Below the pieces are notes generated by a model. It made no database searches. It saw only the letters and a program-made list of their open reading frames with translations, and was not told the DNA's origin. From positions 1 through 34,874 of IMG/VR virus record IMGVR_UViG_3300010354_000278: DNA of 34,874 bases; one strand, written 5' to 3'. Shown piece by piece: positions 3,688-31,915 of this stretch (the first letter of the stretch is position 1; every line of letters begins with the position of its first letter). Made by a program: the position numbers and the translations under genes. The DNA is from a virus.

Positions 3688-4077
3688 CTAATTGCAACGA
3701 CTATACCCAAAAAGTTCGCCTGATTTGAAGTGTAATCTCATTCTGGGCCAATCTTCCCAGTCACCTTCCCACTTGACTGGATACACTTCCACATAATCGG
3801 TAATGTTGCAAGGTTGAACCTTCCCGTGGGTTCCGTTTGGAACACATCTATAGTTCATGAATTTCATATTCTCTCTATATTCCTCACGCTCTTTGCCTAT
3901 GATTTCAAGATCGTGCGTTCCACTGTAGTTCATTAAATACAACTGCCCCGCTGGCGATAGCCAATAATTCGACATTGTTCCACCAATCCCGCGCTCAAGA
4001 TCCTTTGTTTGACAGAGGATATTCGTAAACCCTTCCCCCAAGTTATAGCTTGAGTAAAGATAATCAAACATGCTCAT
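3688..4077 (-). CDS. Conserved hypothetical protein, 129 aa
   Basis: Start MSMFDYLYSSYNLGEGFTN is supported by an AGGGGAT Shine-Dalgarno 8 bp upstream; an upstream in-frame MQGIK start would place that signal inside the gene. The opening (MSMFDYxYxxYxLGEGFTxxxCQTKDL) and the later GGTMSNYWLSPAGQLYLMNYSGTH resemble a conserved small protein seen in T4-like and other cyanophages, rich in aromatics and beta structure. No function is known. It overlaps the upstream gene by 14 bp. Confidence 0.7.
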   Translation of the reverse strand: MSMFDYLYSSYNLGEGFTNILCQTKDLERGIGGTMSNYWLSPAGQLYLMNYSGTHDLEIIGKEREEYRENMKFMNYRCVPNGTHGKVQPCNITDYVEVYPVKWEGDWEDWPRMRLHFKSGELFGYSRCN

Positions 4078-24775: not shown

Positions 24776-25585
24776 TTACAGGGCCAGCTTATCGGGATTA
24801 GCGACCTTCCGCAGCTTTCGTATTCCATGATCACACCTAGAGCGGATAACTGAAACACTAAGGCCGGTTACTGCGCTTATTTGCTTATATTCCATGCTTT
24901 CTACAAAGCGCATGCGAAGCAAGTTGGCAATAGACTCGGGCAAGCTCGCTTCTTTGAAAAGAGATTCTATTTCGTTGGAAAATTTCCCCTGCTGGCGATA
25001 CGAATCATCTACAAAAGAATTACGGACCGTATCCGCAACATCTATATCGTCACCAATCAGGCGGTCCAGAGAGTCAAGATTAAGAGCCATCAAGACTCTG
25101 TCGGTCATTTGACGGGCCATGCTTTCGGGAAAGTTTCTCCCACCAGTTGCTTTTGAATCCCTGTAATTAAAAGCAGCCCGTACTGAATCTTCTGGAACGT
25201 AGATTTGACTCATTTCAAGGTAATTATGTCTGCCAATATAGCAACGAATCCAATGCGTAGCGTATGTCGAAAATTGATAGCCACGCTTAGGGTCAAACTT
25301 TTCAGCGGCTTTCATTAAGCCTAGCACGCCAACCTGTAAATAATCCACCGTGGATTCATGGCCCCATCGACGATACGCTTGTGACCGTAAATAACGTCCG
25401 ACAAGATTCGCAACTAACAAAAGGTTGTGCTCAACCAGTTTATTAATTAATTTAACTTTTTTGGGATCGCCGTCTGGCAGTTCCTGGATCTCGTTTCCAA
25501 TTTTACAAATCTGACTTTTCGGCAGTCTTGGCTTTCGACCTGCTTCGTTGAGCCAGGTTGTGATCGGATCGGTCGTTTGATGCAT
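24776..25585 (-). CDS. Sigma-70 (RpoD-like) transcription factor, 269 aa
   Basis: The start at 25585 (MHQTTDPITTWLNEAGRKPR) gives region 1.2. Region 2: LVEHNLLLVANLVGRYLRSQ, DYLQVGVLGLMKAAEKFDPK, RGYQFSTYATHWIRCYIGRH (-10 binding). Region 3 is short and diverged. Region 4 helix-turn-helix: PESIANLLRMRFVESMEYKQ, ISAVTGLSVSVIRSRCDHGI, RKLRK (-35 binding). A complete sigma close to cyanobacterial group 2 factors, probably reprogramming host RNA polymerase. Located between ssb and the annealing protein, it is likely early or middle. It differs from the second sigma at 18293. Confidence 0.88.
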   Translation of the reverse strand: MHQTTDPITTWLNEAGRKPRLPKSQICKIGNEIQELPDGDPKKVKLINKLVEHNLLLVANLVGRYLRSQAYRRWGHESTVDYLQVGVLGLMKAAEKFDPKRGYQFSTYATHWIRCYIGRHNYLEMSQIYVPEDSVRAAFNYRDSKATGGRNFPESMARQMTDRVLMALNLDSLDRLIGDDIDVADTVRNSFVDDSYRQQGKFSNEIESLFKEASLPESIANLLRMRFVESMEYKQISAVTGLSVSVIRSRCDHGIRKLRKVANPDKLAL

Positions 25586-25700
25586 TGTCGCCAGACAACG
25601 GGCTGAACTCGTCAATGATGCCGCAAACAGGCTGGTGGCGCAAGAGGTGGAGCCTAAAATTCTCTAAAGAAGTTCGCGCAGATCAGAAAGGCTTCCAAAG

Positions 25701-25767: not shown

Positions 25768-26445
25768 CTACCAGGCTTCCGTGTTTGCGGCCTTCAGAAA
25801 AGGGGCGTTTTGCTCCTTGACCCATGAATCATCTTTCGACTCAAGCGTCTTGATGCCTTTTTCGTAGTTGCCCTTAATGACTCCAATCAGTTTGGTGACC
25901 GCGTCTTTGCACAGACCTTTATCAGTGGCTGCGTTGACGAAATCTTCTTCAGTGGGCCCAGGAGCCGCTTTTGAGATCTTTGAGGTGATTGGCTTTGGCG
26001 TATCCTGTTGAAGCGGCACAGAGGGCTGTGCGTCCCCGTATCCGCTTTCGATTGGCATCTTTGCCCACAGCTCAAAAGCAAGGCCAAAGAAGAAGCAAGC
26101 AGCGAGACAGGTTCCACGACGCTGCGTGTCCGTAATGTCTCGGGCCGTAATTTTTTCAAATGGAATAGCGGAATTTCGCGTATCCATAATCGACTGAGGA
26201 ACCGCAGGGGTCTCAGTTCCGTCAGCATGGACAAAGCGAATCATCAAATAACCGCCAACCGGTGCCCGATGAACAAGCGAGCCATCTTGCGCGGTTAAGG
26301 TTTCCGGCATCCAGCCGGGAGCATGTTGTCGCAACAAATTCAGTGTACGCGACCAGTTAACGTAACTTGCCTTGAAGTTGCCGGAACCAATGGTATCAAC
26401 AAGATCCTTGGTTACAACACCAGCCAAATTTGGAATTTCAGCCAT
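25768..26445 (-). CDS. Single-strand annealing protein, DUF1071/Sak3-like, 225 aa
   Basis: Residues 20-130 show KASYVNWSRTLNLLRQHAPG, GGYLMIRFVHADGTETPAVP, MDTRNSAIPFEKITARDITD and TQRRGTCLAACFFFGLAFEL followed by WAK. This is the DUF1071 pattern (YxxWxxxxxxL...P, D..N...i...Di....RRc..AaA...GLafelWak), the Sak3 group of phage recombinases. The C-terminal part is a Ser/Pro linker and a helical domain. It anneals complementary single strands made by an exonuclease (22844). An alternative is a Rad52/RecT-like relative. Confidence 0.75.
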   Translation of the reverse strand: MAEIPNLAGVVTKDLVDTIGSGNFKASYVNWSRTLNLLRQHAPGWMPETLTAQDGSLVHRAPVGGYLMIRFVHADGTETPAVPQSIMDTRNSAIPFEKITARDITDTQRRGTCLAACFFFGLAFELWAKMPIESGYGDAQPSVPLQQDTPKPITSKISKAAPGPTEEDFVNAATDKGLCKDAVTKLIGVIKGNYEKGIKTLESKDDSWVKEQNAPFLKAANTEAW

Positions 26446-26788
26446 TAGTTGATTTACGTAATGCTTTCAATAGCTTACGGGGTTTAGCGTCTTCAATTTC
26501 TTGTTGAAGCCGATCTTTACGTTGTTTTAGTTTTTCCTGTGCTTCCAACGCAGAGCGGCAATTTTGCCGGTGCATTTGAAGCCACAAGTCCAACTCCCAA
26601 CGCTCGTAAATCCCGAGGTCGCCAATTAGTTGCCATGCCCAATCCTCAGATTGGCGGCCTTCCAGGACAGCGCGGGCGACAGATTGCCCGATCTCCTGGA
26701 ACGACCGGCGAGCTTGGGCCCGCTGCTCACGAGTGTACCGGGTTTTCGTCTTCGGCTTACCGGTTGTGCCGGTTTTGTTTTCGTCCAT
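26438..26788 (-). CDS. Basic coiled-coil protein next to the divergent repeats, 116 aa
   Basis: The start at 26788 (MDENKTGTTGKPKTKTRYTR) is chosen because the upstream extension crosses the repeat array. N-terminus basic and flexible, residues 20-60 helical (REQRAQARRSFQEIGQSVAR), residues 75-115 a coiled coil (EAQEKLKQRKDRLQQEIEDA). No family recognised. Being the first gene leftward of the repeat array, it could be a regulator acting there, but this is only position-based. Overlaps the next gene by 8 bp. Confidence 0.6.
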   Translation of the reverse strand: MDENKTGTTGKPKTKTRYTREQRAQARRSFQEIGQSVARAVLEGRQSEDWAWQLIGDLGIYERWELDLWLQMHRQNCRSALEAQEKLKQRKDRLQQEIEDAKPRKLLKALRKSTNG

Positions 26789-26864
26789 TTTCCGACTGCC
26801 GCGTAGCGCGTGCGCGTGGGTATGGTTCCAGTCTGGTGTGGATATGAGGGTTAATCTGACTAAG

Positions 26865-26975
26865 TGTCGTATTTTGCGACATTTTTTGTCGTTTTTTACG
26901 ACGGCCACGTCGCGTCATGCAACGTCGATGTCGCGTCATGCAACGTCGCATTTTGCAACGTTGCAAAAAACGACA
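26865..26975. repeat. Direct-repeat and palindrome array (candidate origin or operator)
   Basis: Within the divergent intergenic region 26789-27011: hairpin TGTCG-N7-CGACA (26865-26881); hairpin GTCGT-TTTTT-ACGAC (26888-26902); two perfect 19-bp direct repeats GTCGCGTCATGCAACGTCG (26909-26927 and 26930-26948, period 21 bp); and an 18-bp perfect palindrome TTTTGCAACGTTGCAAAA (26951-26968). The octamer TGCAACGT occurs in both repeats and in the palindrome; TGTCG/CGACA occurs at least five times. Such arrays are typical of iteron origins or operators. The adjacent gene at 27012 is a replication initiator-type protein. Confidence 0.75.
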
Positions 26976-27011: not shown

Positions 27012-28013
27012 ATGACCGCAATCAGCGTCTCGTCTGAGAAAGGCTGGATTGTCAATTCTAATTTCGTGAAGGTGCCGGTCGAAGTCTTGACCAGTGCGGA
27101 ACTGAGCACTTCCGCAAAACTGCTCTGGATGATTCTTGCCAACCAATCCGACTTCCGCCCAATTCACAAAAGCCAAATTGATCTAGCCCTAAGTGTTCAT
27201 CGCGGCACACGTTTACGTTTATTTAAAGAATTGCGTGATCTGGGGCTGATTCACGGCCAGGAGCACCATGTCCTGCTGTCCGATCCCCGGCCAATTCTGC
27301 GCAAGCTTGCGAAGGAACGTCGTCAAGCGCATGAGTTAATGGATGAGACGGTATGTCGAGACACTTCTGAGCCAGTCCAGCTCCCAGACACCAAGGAGAC
27401 GAAGGAGAAGCCTGATTATTTCACCCTTGCTACAGAGGCCTGGAATCTTTACAGGCCAGCCGATTACGCAAAAGTGCGCAAGCTTAGTTCCGGTTTGTTG
27501 CAGGCCCTTGACGCCCACCTGAAGGCCCTTAAGCTAAATGCTCATGATTACCATTTGTTTTTCTCAGTGATAAAAGCGGGCGTAGAGCGATCAAGGTTTT
27601 GGTCGCACGAAAACAGTTCAAAAACTTTGCAATCAATTATTGGTTTTGGCGCGCCAACGGCGAAAAAATTTAGTAATGTTTATACTTTGTACAATGACGG
27701 ATTAGATGAACCAAAATCGCAGCCGATCGAAGAACACCAACGCATAGAAAAAATTGTACTGCCTAAACATTGCCGTAAAATTATCGACGATTATGATGAA
27801 GCTCAATATCATTACTACGAATGCTACTTTAAGCCAGATTGTGACACCGAATATGCCGCCAAGTTTCTCATAGAAAAAGAAGAGAAGTTAAAAGCCGAAG
27901 GCCTTGATCCTGCTAGTTTTAGGCTGATGCACCACAGCGTTGACCTTGTTGCCTGGCCGACAGATACGCCAGCCCCCACAAAGCCTAGAGAACAGTTCTG
28001 GTCTTATCGTTAG
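27012..28013 (+). CDS. Replication initiator / helicase-loader-like protein, 333 aa
   Basis: The start at 27012 (MTAISVSSEKGWIVNSNFVK) is the first ATG after the repeat array and no Shine-Dalgarno is visible. Residues 20-85 (FVKVPVEVLTSAELSTSAKL, LWMILANQSDFRPIHKSQID, LALSVHRGTRLRLFKELRDL) form a winged helix of the phage replication-protein (replisome organiser/lambda O-like) type. The rest (FFSVIKAGVERSRFWSHENS; VLPKHCRKIIDDYDEAQYHY) is unknown. Directly before the DnaB-like helicase (5-bp gap) it probably binds the array and loads the helicase. Confidence 0.7.
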   Translation: MTAISVSSEKGWIVNSNFVKVPVEVLTSAELSTSAKLLWMILANQSDFRPIHKSQIDLALSVHRGTRLRLFKELRDLGLIHGQEHHVLLSDPRPILRKLAKERRQAHELMDETVCRDTSEPVQLPDTKETKEKPDYFTLATEAWNLYRPADYAKVRKLSSGLLQALDAHLKALKLNAHDYHLFFSVIKAGVERSRFWSHENSSKTLQSIIGFGAPTAKKFSNVYTLYNDGLDEPKSQPIEEHQRIEKIVLPKHCRKIIDDYDEAQYHYYECYFKPDCDTEYAAKFLIEKEEKLKAEGLDPASFRLMHHSVDLVAWPTDTPAPTKPREQFWSYR

Positions 28014-28017
28014 AAAA

Positions 28018-29799
28018 ATGACACAATTTCCTTTTTACATTCAAAAAGCAGTTGAACTCGGTCTGCTCATTACTGACGGTATAAAAATTACAGGTTGCAA
28101 CGAAAAAGCAGCCGAAAAAACAATTAGCGTTGCTCGTATAGTTGACAAGCTGCAACCAACTAGCGTCCAGCAACGCGAAGATACGCTTTCCCAGGAAGCC
28201 ATTGTCTTGTCGAGGGTTCTTGCAGCTCCAAGCGGTGTTGCTAGGGAATTGTGGGCAGAACTTCGCACAGCATTTGGCATGGGTCATGGTCAGTATGTGC
28301 CATCAACACTTTGGAGCGATGATTGCCTGAGGGCAGTCGCCCGTGAGATCGATTTAACTTTTATTGGCGAAAGAACAAACCAAACAATAAGTAAAGAGTC
28401 TATTATTTCAAGTTACAGAAACCTAAGCGATTCGTCAAGAACCGTCTCCATTCTTGAATTCACTAAATCGATTGCCGAACTCTCGGATCCACAAACAATT
28501 GAATCTTATGGCGATGCAGAATCAGAGTGGGTTACTGCTCTTGATATCTTAAAGCAAGTCAGAGTCAGGGCGCTATATCTAGAAACTTTGCATATTGCCA
28601 AACAAAATATTAAAGCTGATACCAAACTTGAAGAAGCTTTGGAGTTTTTGCAGCAACGCGCAATGGAAGGCGTTGGAATGATGAGGGGTTCAATTGGCAA
28701 CCAGGGGCAAGCCGTCAACTTATTGGATTCAATTATTGGAAACGTTGGAGGCAGCCGTCAAAACTGGATCGATAAACTTGCCGGCATTGGGCAGCAAAGA
28801 AGACCTGCCTCAACTGGGGTCTATGCATTTGATCTTGATATTGAAGGTGGCGTCAGCCATGTACAAGCCCACCAATCCGCAGGCGGGAGGTTGCTTACCA
28901 TCGCTGCCAGAACCAGTGTTGGTAAAAGTTCTTTCGGTTGTCAAGTTGCAGCAAATTTGGCGGCAAATGGTGTAACCGTAGGATTTATTTCCGCAGAACT
29001 GAATGCCTCTAGCATAGAAGCCAGAATCATTGCTTCATTAAGTCGCAAGTTATTACGCACCGGAAATTATCACTGGAAAGCAACGGGAGAGCGCATCGGA
29101 CACGTAACAGTTGGCGAACTTGAAAGTCCAAGCAATATTGACAAGAATCAACTTATTAATATCCTAGGAAAAGTGGCTCAAGCTCTTGATGAAACTGGTG
29201 GTAAGTTCTTGATTGAATGCCCATGGGGTGCATGTGTCGACTCAGCCGTCAATTCAATGCGAGCAATGAAAGCAAAAAATCCAGATCTAAGAGCAGTAGT
29301 CCTAGATCATTTTCATGCACTAGCAAGACACAAAGGTTCATCCAGCAATCAGTCGACAATGCTGGAGGAACGTGCTTACAAATTGATGACTGCCGCCAAG
29401 GAGCTGGACATCGACCTTTTTGTATTAGCACAAATGAACCAAGTAGGCCTTAAAATCGCCCAGAACGACTTTAAAAAAGAACGCAATACTCAACCACCGG
29501 AATTGGACCAAATACGTGGTACAGACGCTCTTAGCCATGTCTCACACGCCGTTTGGCTTATACGTAAACACCAGGCCAATGACGGTGAACCGTCCGACAG
29601 AAAACTGGAAATTTGGCATTCTAAGGTGCGAGGTAGACAAGCATTCTGGGAAGGAGAACCACCGAACGAAGAAATTACAACCGTTCAGGGGTTTGTTGAT
29701 ATGTCACTCGTGCAATTAGACTACGCCACATCTAGCATCAAAAGCGATGACACCATGCAGCATCGCGATATTGTAAAATCAAGGAGGGGCCGAGCTTGA
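28018..29799 (+). CDS. DnaB-like replicative helicase, 593 aa
   Basis: Starts MTQFPFYIQKAVELGLLITD. The C-terminal RecA-like core begins near residue 280: SAGGRLLTIAARTSVGKSSF (Walker A), VTVGFISAELNASSIEARII, RAVVLDHFHALAR (Walker B), IDLFVLAQMNQVGLKIAQND, and RGTDALSHVSHAVWLIRKHQ with the arginine region. The N-terminal 260 residues are helical (probable primase and self-association domain) without a clear DnaB N-domain signature. It unwinds the fork and should interact with the primase at 16553. The 5' end is 4 bp after the initiator stop. Confidence 0.85.
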   Translation: MTQFPFYIQKAVELGLLITDGIKITGCNEKAAEKTISVARIVDKLQPTSVQQREDTLSQEAIVLSRVLAAPSGVARELWAELRTAFGMGHGQYVPSTLWSDDCLRAVAREIDLTFIGERTNQTISKESIISSYRNLSDSSRTVSILEFTKSIAELSDPQTIESYGDAESEWVTALDILKQVRVRALYLETLHIAKQNIKADTKLEEALEFLQQRAMEGVGMMRGSIGNQGQAVNLLDSIIGNVGGSRQNWIDKLAGIGQQRRPASTGVYAFDLDIEGGVSHVQAHQSAGGRLLTIAARTSVGKSSFGCQVAANLAANGVTVGFISAELNASSIEARIIASLSRKLLRTGNYHWKATGERIGHVTVGELESPSNIDKNQLINILGKVAQALDETGGKFLIECPWGACVDSAVNSMRAMKAKNPDLRAVVLDHFHALARHKGSSSNQSTMLEERAYKLMTAAKELDIDLFVLAQMNQVGLKIAQNDFKKERNTQPPELDQIRGTDALSHVSHAVWLIRKHQANDGEPSDRKLEIWHSKVRGRQAFWEGEPPNEEITTVQGFVDMSLVQLDYATSSIKSDDTMQHRDIVKSRRGRA

Positions 29800-30254
29800 G
29801 GAACTTTCTGTTCGATCTTACCGCCCGGTCTGGCGCATTTGCGATTTGGTTATTGCAAGGTGCAGGCAAATGTATTGCCTACGTATTTGGAGCGATTTGC
29901 GGCGTGATGGTATGGCTGACCGCTAACATCACAAGGACATTATTGGTCATTATTGATAAACGTAAATACGAGCACTCCTTGCAGGTAACAGATCAATATG
30001 CTTTAACAAGAGAACTTGAAATCCTGCAAGCAGTTACTCGCGTCAAGGAAGACGCAATGAATCGTGCGCTATGGACAAATAATCATTCGATTGAATTGAA
30101 CATGCTTGGCTCGCGTTTATATAATGAATGCGAGTGGAGCGAAGCAAGTATTCACAAGTATATGCGAACAGTTGTCGAAAGCATTCCTGGACTTAGTTAC
30201 ATGGTCCCCGACAACGAAAGTGATGACGACGAAGACGGAATACCCATCAATTAA
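29796..30254 (+). CDS. Membrane-anchored acidic protein in the replication operon, 152 aa
   Basis: A TTG start at 29796 overlaps the helicase stop (TTGA) and is supported by a strong AGGAGGGG Shine-Dalgarno about 7 bp upstream. Residues 14-55 hold two hydrophobic segments (GAFAIWLLQGAGKCIAYVF; AICGVMVWLTANITRTLLVI), then KRKYEHSLQV and a helical cytoplasmic part ending in an Asp/Glu tail (NESDDDEDG). No family recognised. Possibly a membrane tether or regulator for replication; this is inference only. It ends convergent with the gene at 30257, 2 bp apart. Confidence 0.65.
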   Translation: MRNFLFDLTARSGAFAIWLLQGAGKCIAYVFGAICGVMVWLTANITRTLLVIIDKRKYEHSLQVTDQYALTRELEILQAVTRVKEDAMNRALWTNNHSIELNMLGSRLYNECEWSEASIHKYMRTVVESIPGLSYMVPDNESDDDEDGIPIN

Positions 30255-30478: not shown

Positions 30479-31611
30479 GGCTTCCTGAAAGCGTTGCCCT
30501 CAAATGACCAGTACCAACCGTCATGATCATTATTGATTAGCCAACGTTTTTCTAGGTTGGCACGGGAATATCTTTGGTTTTTGCCATCAGTCGGTCCATT
30601 TTTTGGATAGCCACCATTAATAAGATCAAGCTCTCCGAAAGGATCGTGGACATAATAATACTTTGAATCATAGCCAATTAAAGCAACGTAATGACCGCCC
30701 CCTGTTGGACTCCCTAGGCTGCCGCGATGCAAGATACCAATAGGTACGGGGATTCCTAAATCCAGTAGTCGGATTACATCACTACTGCGCCCATCCATTT
30801 TAAATGAATTTTTTACTCCAAGATGTCCAAGTGCTTTTTTATGCGCCGACTGAGAAACTGTATCCCCATATCTAAACACTAATCCCAAGTAATCATCATC
30901 GCCATTGATCAAATCGGGATTCAAGTATTCCAGTACCATCGCGATTGCACTTGATTGGCAGGATCTCTCGCCATGGCCCGTCTTGCTGTCGCGCTGATAA
31001 TAATATGGAACTTTTAATGGAAACTTGTCAGCACTTGACTCTTTTTTTGCTCGATATAATTCTGCAAATTTATTTAACTGAGTCTCTGTTAAACACGATT
31101 GAAGAAAGTCCCACGCTTTGTTCTGATGAGCATCAGATACATAATACGCCGCAGCTTGTTTCAAGTTAATTGGCGACTTAACTGGCACCTTCGGCAATTC
31201 AATGGGCGCTGCATTGTGCGACATAAGTTGAATTAACTTATCTGCATAATTGGGATCGGTCGCATATTTTTCCGTCACCAACATCCTTGCTGCCTCGTTT
31301 CGATTTGCGGCATTATTTACACCCTTGTAACTTTTATAGTCTTTATACCACTTGTCTACTAAATATTGTATGCAATCAATCGGAGAATCAAAGTCTTGAA
31401 ATTCTGCTACAATTGTTACTTCTTTGCCGTTGACAAATTCCTTGGTTTCCTTTTTTGTGCCTTGACCTTTAATACCAAAAAAGTTGTTCTTACCAGACTG
31501 GAAATAACCCCAGCCGCTTTCAAGTGCATATTGTGCAGCTACAAGCTCTGGATACTTGGCGCCAGCTTTAACTGCCAGCGAGCAAACCTCGGCCCAGGTC
31601 AATACTGTCAT
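30475..31611 (-). CDS. Two-domain endolysin: glucosaminidase + C39-like peptidase, 378 aa
   Basis: Residues 1-135: FlgJ-type glucosaminidase (ALESGWGYFQSGKNNFFGIK, catalytic Glu31; LVDKWYKDYKSYKGVNNAAN; MLVTEKYATDPNYADKLIQL). Residues 195-350: C39-like papain-fold peptidase (VPYYYQRDSKTGHGERSCQS with Cys218, GGGHYVALIGYDSKYYYVHD with His307 and Asp323). The linker, residues 136-195, is Pro/Ala-rich. One domain cuts the glycan strand, the other a peptide bond in host peptidoglycan. There is no signal peptide, so release needs a holin (31643 or 32215). Confidence 0.85.
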   Translation of the reverse strand: MTVLTWAEVCSLAVKAGAKYPELVAAQYALESGWGYFQSGKNNFFGIKGQGTKKETKEFVNGKEVTIVAEFQDFDSPIDCIQYLVDKWYKDYKSYKGVNNAANRNEAARMLVTEKYATDPNYADKLIQLMSHNAAPIELPKVPVKSPINLKQAAAYYVSDAHQNKAWDFLQSCLTETQLNKFAELYRAKKESSADKFPLKVPYYYQRDSKTGHGERSCQSSAIAMVLEYLNPDLINGDDDYLGLVFRYGDTVSQSAHKKALGHLGVKNSFKMDGRSSDVIRLLDLGIPVPIGILHRGSLGSPTGGGHYVALIGYDSKYYYVHDPFGELDLINGGYPKNGPTDGKNQRYSRANLEKRWLINNDHDGWYWSFEGNAFRKP

Positions 31612-31642
31612 CTCGCTGACTTACTTGCCAGCTAGGATACCA

Positions 31643-31915
31643 TTACTTTTGAGATTCAACGCCAGTAGAAGGCACAATTCGCATATCAAAATTAGCGCCG
31701 AGAACAGCAATAGCCAATGGTAAAACTAGACTCATCGCCGCTACAGCGCCGAGGGCCCAGGAAGTCCTTGTCTCCAGTTCGCGCAAACGTGTGAAAACAT
31801 TCGCCAAATCAGCCGAGTATTCTGTAACGCGAATTACTACTGCGTCCATCTTGGCTTCAAGCGCACCAAGCTTATGATAAATATCGACGTGAGATATTTG
31901 GTCGTCAGGAGCCAT
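31643..31915 (-). CDS. XhlA-like putative holin or haemolysin-type membrane protein, 90 aa
   Basis: Starts MAPDDQISHVDIYHKLGALE. Residues 10-50 form a coiled coil (ALEAKMDAVVIRVTEYSADL; FTRLRELETRTSWA), then one transmembrane segment (LGAVAAMSLVLPLAIAVLGA, about 55-74) and a short tail. This architecture is that of XhlA/haemolysin-associated small phage proteins. Between holin and endolysin genes it is likely part of the lysis cassette; the exact role is unproven. Confidence 0.6.
   Translation of the reverse strand: MAPDDQISHVDIYHKLGALEAKMDAVVIRVTEYSADLANVFTRLRELETRTSWALGAVAAMSLVLPLAIAVLGANFDMRIVPSTGVESQK

Follow-up and report, generated by a model that had tools for sequence, protein, structure and literature searches.

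Introduction

In the Bacillus phage SPP1, the initiator gp38 (G38P) stands beside a DnaB-type helicase and binds two distant regions (PMC6316719, PMC3485210). These regions, oriL and oriR, combine repeats with an AT-rich unwinding element; one is located at the initiator gene and the other in noncoding DNA (PMC6316719, PMC3485210), and a fork barrier has been proposed for oriR (PMC3485210). In phage lambda, inverted-repeat iterons bind dimers of the O initiator, with an AT-rich region adjoining (PMC5043065, PMC7466680). In the RepA initiators of PLE satellites, the winged-helix N-terminal domain and the iterons co-vary and the C-terminal domain is conserved; an A/T tract forms the centre of each semi-palindromic iteron (PMC7145576, PMC8263062).

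Here we analyze a dyad array in a single virus record of 34,874 bases (the window), which, judging from the sequence, covers part of the genome of a cyanosiphovirus similar to S-CBS2 and the S-CRES phages. The helicase operon, a small basic protein, a Sak-like protein, a sigma factor and SSB occur in the same order in the Synechococcus siphoviruses S-CBS2 and S-CRES1-3. The records of S-CBS2 and the S-CRES phages that we viewed carry no origin annotation, and our literature search found no paper describing one. The array very probably consists of six iterons read by the phage initiator and forms one of two modules (A and B), as in SPP1 oriL/oriR.

Genes flanking the array

The genes around the array are as follows.

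24776-25615, minus strand: sigma-70 family factor, phage-encoded (Sigma70_r2, 1.9e-11)
25768-26445, minus strand: Sak-like single-strand annealing protein (PHROG 8492 Sak-like, weak, 1e-4; phrog_21418, 4.6e-63)
26438-26788, minus strand: small basic helical protein, the conserved leftward neighbour, with its family at every locus examined
27012-28013, plus strand: predicted replication initiator, 333 aa (from an AlphaFold2 model, fold comparison, PHROGs matches of relatives and covariation with dyad type)
27940-29799, plus strand: DnaB-like replicative helicase (Pfam DnaB_C, 1.5e-15; PHROG DnaB-like, 6.5e-20)
29796-30254, plus strand: third gene of the helicase operon (no family matches in our searches)

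The first-pass annotation had placed the repeats between divergent genes, and the array is indeed flanked by the leftward gene at 26438-26788 and the rightward initiator and helicase genes. The conserved part of the helicase starts near 28018. The basic protein is helical in its model, and a fold search gave no confident match. The Sak-like protein heads the leftward recombination genes, and its S-CRES homologues are annotated as Rad52 recombinase. In the S-CRES phages, the gene in the place of 29796-30254 is annotated as an RNase III endonuclease, which our family searches do not confirm. Since the phage has its own sigma-70 factor, its promoters may deviate from the host consensus.

A tandem array of six dyads

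Positions 26866-26974 consist of six tandem 15-bp dyads of the form GTYGY-N5-RCRAC, with start-to-start spacings of 22, 21, 21, 15, and 15 bp. They are listed without strand, together with their counterparts in the closest relative found, IMGVR_UViG_3300020183_000237 (L012, also G001), whose initiator is 85% identical to that of the window.

26866-26880: iteron 1, GTCGTATTTTGCGAC; L012 counterpart GTCGCAAAATGCGAC
26888-26902: iteron 2, GTCGTTTTTTACGAC; L012 counterpart GTTGTCTTTCACGAC
26909-26923: iteron 3, GTCGCGTCATGCAAC; L012 counterpart GTCGCATGGTGCAAC, with the spacer altered and the half-sites intact
26930-26944: iteron 4, GTCGCGTCATGCAAC; L012 counterpart GTCGCATGATGCAAC
26945-26959: iteron 5, GTCGCATTTTGCAAC; same sequence in L012
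26960-26974: iteron 6, GTTGCAAAAAACGAC; same sequence in L012

Matches to this pattern number six in the 34,874-bp window, all within 109 bp, and no second GTYGY array turned up when the whole window was scanned, the best other cluster being weak. A looser dyad pattern is expected about twice per whole simulated window. Among 5,000 simulated 130-bp sequences with the region's own composition, the maximum was four dyads, against the six observed. Four of the six sites read GTYGC-ATTTT/AAAAA-GCRAC, a semi-palindrome that converges on an A/T tract, as is characteristic of the iterons of RepA_N systems; the other two have the mixed spacer GTCAT.

The repeat units reported in the first-pass annotation are all present: two identical 19-bp repeats, GTCGCGTCATGCAACGTCG, with a period of 21 (26909-26927 and 26930-26948), an 18-bp palindrome, TTTTGCAACGTTGCAAAA (26951-26968), and five TGTCG/CGACA elements (TGTCG at 26865, 26887, and 26929; CGACA at 26877 and 26971). 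They had nevertheless been mis-parsed, since neighbouring dyads generate both the 19-bp repeats and the palindrome, which is only the junction of iterons 5 and 6. Likewise, the proposed placement of the sites on one face of the DNA holds for sites 1-4, which are 21-22 bp or two turns apart, but fails for sites 4-5-6, which are 15 bp or about 1.4 turns apart.

Conservation of the array in related phages

A search of the phage database with the initiator protein returned no matches, and relatives were reached via the helicase instead, with whose profile 47 loci were fetched; several of these contigs are incomplete. For an unbiased repeat search, the 480 bp upstream of each initiator's core were scored against all 480-bp windows of the locus. 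The top-scoring repeat of the locus fell at the array spot in 29 of 49 loci, and a top-ranking array was absent from the spot upstream of the initiator in the other ~20. In L013 and L014, relatives of the window's initiator are present and the dyads are degraded. Dyads were also recovered de novo in relatives. Conservation in related phages, by which the first-pass annotation proposed to judge the repeats, thus applies to the array and its spacing (29/49 loci), while dyad sequence varies widely.

Over 32 arrays, 99 of 118 inter-dyad intervals are either 21-24 bp (73) or 14-18 bp (26), and the same two classes take in 57 of 60 intervals in the 21 arrays whose type differs from that of the window. 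Clustered repeats at helical spacing, a mark of iteron origins, are therefore present both in the window, as six dyads, and in its relatives. As these intervals correspond to about 2 and 1.5 helical turns, neighbouring sites do not all lie on the same face.

All six dyads are retained in L012 with their spacing unchanged. Between the two, only 2 of 60 half-site positions have changed, each by a transition, as against 10 of 30 spacer positions (Fisher p = 2e-4). What is conserved is, on this comparison, the half-sites and not the repeat as a whole. Across the group the dyads belong to different types, of which the following list is incomplete, further types existing.

GTYGC...GCRAC: the window's group and L045
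TGTCGCATTTTGCGC (related repeats): L079
GCTGC...GCAGC: L022
TGGAC...GTCCA: S-CRES1, L050, and L072
ACCCA...TGGGT: S-CRES3
GCCCA...TGGGC: S-CBS2
GACGAATCATC: L057
ACCGTCAAACGGT: L070
GATACCTGAGGTATC: L080

The L045 array contains seven perfect copies of GTTGCAAAATGCAAC, and its initiator is ~40% identical to that of the window, with the recognition helix HRSTRIRC.

The predicted initiator and its pairing with the dyads

The AlphaFold2 model of the 27012-28013 protein (mean pLDDT 75, pTM 0.39) has a winged-helix N-terminal domain (~residues 15-97), the proposed reader of the iterons. Structural neighbours include the N-terminal domains of the RepA_N plasmid initiators 4pql, 5kbj, and 4pta (Z 7.7-8.2), as well as those of PLE RepA (4ro3) and of DnaD (2vn2 and 2v79) (whole set Z 6.9-8.2), a level that ordinary winged helices reach alike and that reflects the common winged-helix arrangement. 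At the sequence level, the initiators of 7 of 18 relatives match the PHROGs family "DnaD-like helicase loader" (1.9e-8), relatives also match "replication initiation protein" (3.6e-5), and some match "O-like" weakly. The window protein and 18 relatives gave no match to PF06970 (RepA_N) at E up to 1, no NCBIfam membership was found for the initiator, and a PDB sequence search with initiator profiles gave weak winged-helix matches only. Because the PF06970 profile is unmatched, we do not assign the protein to RepA_N on its sequence.

The initiators of all these phages have a common C-terminal part, which is conserved across relatives, and their N-terminal winged-helix regions differ strongly between dyad types. 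We compared dyad similarity with protein similarity over 33 loci, using dyad lists compiled partly by hand and including some arrays (e.g., L075 and L077) of two sites each; the relatives are non-independent samples, and the Mantel test corrects for kinship roughly. Dyad similarity was associated with both the N-terminal domain of the initiator (partial Mantel r = 0.26, p = 0.004) and its C-terminal domain (r = 0.29, p = 0.002), and was not associated with the basic protein (r = -0.06, p = 0.79) or the helicase (r = -0.07, p = 0.85).

The Mantel test alone does not separate the two initiator domains, but natural swap pairs do. S-CBS2 and L062 are similar in the basic protein (0.80), the helicase (0.89), and the initiator C-terminal domain (0.76), whereas their initiator N-terminal domains (0.08) and their dyads are unrelated. 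The same pattern is seen in a second natural swap, L067 versus L077/L080. Nearly identical basic proteins adjoin unrelated arrays in both sets (S-CBS2/L062/L070 and L077/L080/L067). Since dyad type tracks the N-terminal domain of the initiator and not the basic protein, this domain is the best candidate reader.

The first-pass suggestion of one sequence-specific protein with several sites thus gains support from the comparison with relatives. It had named both neighbours as candidate binders; the evidence favours the initiator and counts against the basic protein, which the dyads do not track. In the recognition helix, the residue after HR is a small one, G, A, or S, in the window's group (IHR[SAG]TR) and N in L022 (IHRNTR). 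The L022 array (3780-3913) has the half-site GCTGC in place of GTYGC alongside this N, which may be taken as a single further hint that the N-terminal domain does the reading.

A second array and unstable DNA

A second array of the same dyad type, B, was found in four relatives.

S-CRES3, 29697-29780: four dyads of its own type, then TTATATATTATAATATATATATA, in noncoding DNA
S-CRES1, 31518-31662: seven dyads, then DNA similar to that of S-CRES3
G022 (the contig of L080), 36656-36751: five dyads
G001, 618-690, plus one at ~340: three plus one dyads, beside a 76% AT stretch

B lies 26-29 kb from the first array (A), on the basic-protein side. The DNA around it is noncoding, and no initiator gene is close by. 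Within one genome, A and B are 76-93% alike over 30-127 bp. As this likeness extends beyond the half-sites, the arrays look like copies or gene-conversion products. A search with position weight matrices found no second array in S-CBS2, G003-G010, and G024, a negative result that takes in several contigs of the window's own group; as far as sequence can tell, B is either not universal or diverged. Iterons 5 and 6 of the window recur in the G001 B array (93% over 30 bp). Position 1 of the window aligns with G001 at ~1424, so that the window ends ~730 bp short of the B region, and we infer that its phage also carries B, a short way outside the left edge of the window.

The DNA adjoining B is among the least stable 0.001-0.038% of each sequence searched. 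At array A, 29 of 33 cases have their most AT-rich 40 bp immediately next to the dyads, toward the basic-protein gene, with instability ranks of 0.003% in S-CBS2, 0.002% in G005, and 0.018% in S-CRES3. The S-CRES3 genome has its two least stable 40-bp stretches exactly beside A and B. An adjacent AT-rich unwinding element, as expected of an iteron origin, is thus present in most relatives and at B of the closest relative (0.025%), but it is absent at the first array of that relative (top 19%) and at the array of the window, where instability reaches only the top 9.5% of the window. Without unstable DNA, the first array is probably not the main melting site in this subgroup, although it probably retains initiator binding.

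GC skew of the window alone gave no clear turning point usable at the array locus. In the three complete or near-complete relatives that have both arrays, the skew check proposed in the first-pass annotation turns against this locus, with the minimum at B and not at A (100 bp from B in S-CRES3, 1410 bp in S-CRES1, and 751 bp in G022). As for the suggestion that the array is a replication origin, the tie to replication stands, whereas opening at this copy is less well supported, the AT-rich unstable DNA of most relatives being missing and the closest relative having such DNA at its second array, ~29 kb away. For want of that element we do not class the window copy as a complete origin.

Although noncoding, the stretch between the array and the basic-protein gene (26788-26865) has hardly changed in the 85%-identical relative; it probably carries a leftward promoter or leader. 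The AT-rich DNA left of the array could possibly be merely the -10 box of a leftward promoter; a motif in it recurs beside B arrays in noncoding DNA, which counts against that reading.

Other blocks recur in the group. AAAGAAAGTGGACAAAGAAA(G) followed by TATA-rich DNA is conserved in five relatives, G001, G006, G003, G024, and G008, with iterons next to it in G001 alone (sites: L084, from G001, 575-605; L092 ~9984; L114 ~18049; L142 ~4744; L162 ~6335). The block AAAGTGGACAAAGAAAG, which occurs near B in five relatives, was considered as an origin part, a candidacy weakened by iterons adjoining it only in G001 and by the frequency of the short pattern in unrelated contigs as well. The motif ACATCTATATATA follows both arrays of G022 (A, L138 8586-8690; B, L139 16656-16790), is also found beside the arrays of L057, L067, L068, and L072, and is a candidate for a separate unwinding or promoter motif.

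Proposed mechanism and alternative explanations

Comparison of relatives yielded the dyads, their conserved spacing, their tracking of the initiator N-terminal domain and not of the basic protein, and B in four relatives; from these we infer binding, dimerisation, helicase delivery, and an origin role. Each 15-bp inverted repeat would be read by the N-terminal winged-helix domain of the 27012-28013 protein, probably as a dimer, and replication would then be started by the C-terminal part of the initiator together with the operon's DnaB-like helicase. Module A would lie at the initiator promoter, and module B, with the same iterons, beside the very unstable DNA 26-29 kb off. On balance, the strands of the window's phage would open at B. 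As A has no unwinding element here, it would, again on balance, work in another capacity. The candidate roles, which may be combined and which we do not rank firmly, are autoregulation by the initiator at the divergent promoters, service as a secondary origin, and a barrier to forks of the kind proposed for SPP1 oriR (PMC3485210).

The chief competing explanation makes the array an operator only, at which the initiator or another regulator silences both divergent promoters, that of the initiator and the leftward one, and has replication start elsewhere. It fits the position between divergent genes, with the last iteron near the initiator start at 27012, the single cluster and missing unwinding element of the window copy, and the separate array with unstable DNA in the closest relative. 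We regard it as rather unlikely, given that most relatives do have very unstable DNA beside the iterons at the same place, that the array and its AT-rich layout recur at B in noncoding DNA without an initiator gene nearby, and that a sigma-70 scan found no convincing consensus promoter clearly overlapping the array. A "master operator" over many genes, as the first-pass annotation had alternatively suggested, is unlikely with no dyad copies elsewhere in the window, but the array may act as a local operator.

Binding of the array by the basic helical protein is considerably less credible still. This protein is the other neighbour, is basic, and has its family at every locus, and its model very weakly resembles small DNA-binding domains such as those of DeoR, KorA, and StbA (E > 2); but near-identical copies of it adjoin unrelated arrays, and its similarity fails to predict the dyad. 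Tandem dyads of similar size also occur in partition and packaging sites. A centromere-like partition site or a DNA-packaging site has even less in its favour here, however, with no partition genes among the scanned neighbours, the terminase genes ~7 kb off in S-CRES3, and a dyad type that tracks the initiator. Chance or a compositional artefact, for which nothing speaks but the short repeat length, has a negligible probability against six matches in 109 bp and none elsewhere, the simulations, and half-sites conserved across relatives.

Within the preferred reading of initiator-read iterons in two modules, we tentatively put forward a further step, which we rate at somewhat under an even chance. 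The DNA-reading domain of the initiator and the iterons may have moved together, as a single cassette, into a replication backbone that is itself conserved, on repeated occasions and with many specificities; B, where present, has the matching new type, and the two loci would be kept in step by gene conversion or joint transfer. Phages like that of the window would then divide the tasks, with iterons but no unwinding element at the initiator gene and the DNA opened at the distant copy.

The comparison yields testable predictions of the origin and of the initiator's sites, and it presents this phage group as a natural collection of winged-helix domains, each matched to its own DNA word. That cassettes are swapped so often suggests that origin specificity is under strong selection, as has been reported of PLE satellites, which thereby evade an origin-cutting nuclease (PMC8263062), and the concerted change of two distant arrays raises an evolutionary question.

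Comparison with known replication systems

By analogy, the array would work like the iteron origin systems of lambda O, SPP1, and PLE. The likeness to Bacillus phage SPP1 lies in the same two-region layout in four relatives. Unlike SPP1, where oriL is inside gene 38 and ~12-13 kb from oriR, here the array is upstream of the initiator and the two regions are 26-29 kb apart; in addition, a separate helicase loader is not recognised, and the window's own A copy has no AT-rich element. With ori-lambda the array shares inverted-repeat iterons, but those of lambda form one cluster inside the O gene, whereas these precede the initiator gene and in some genomes recur at a second locus. PLE RepA (RepA_N) provides a parallel for the co-variation of N-terminal domain and iterons, and its structure (4ro3) is among the structural neighbours; it differs in the PF06970 family, which is unmatched here, and in having two replicon types and one origin, against many dyad types in one phage group and two arrays in some genomes. 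The iteron array thus appears to be a known kind of element whose word has been exchanged unusually often in this virus group. It departs from the known systems in lying upstream of the initiator, in the 26-29 kb between the two regions, in how many specificities a single phage group holds, and in lacking an unwinding element at the window's copy.
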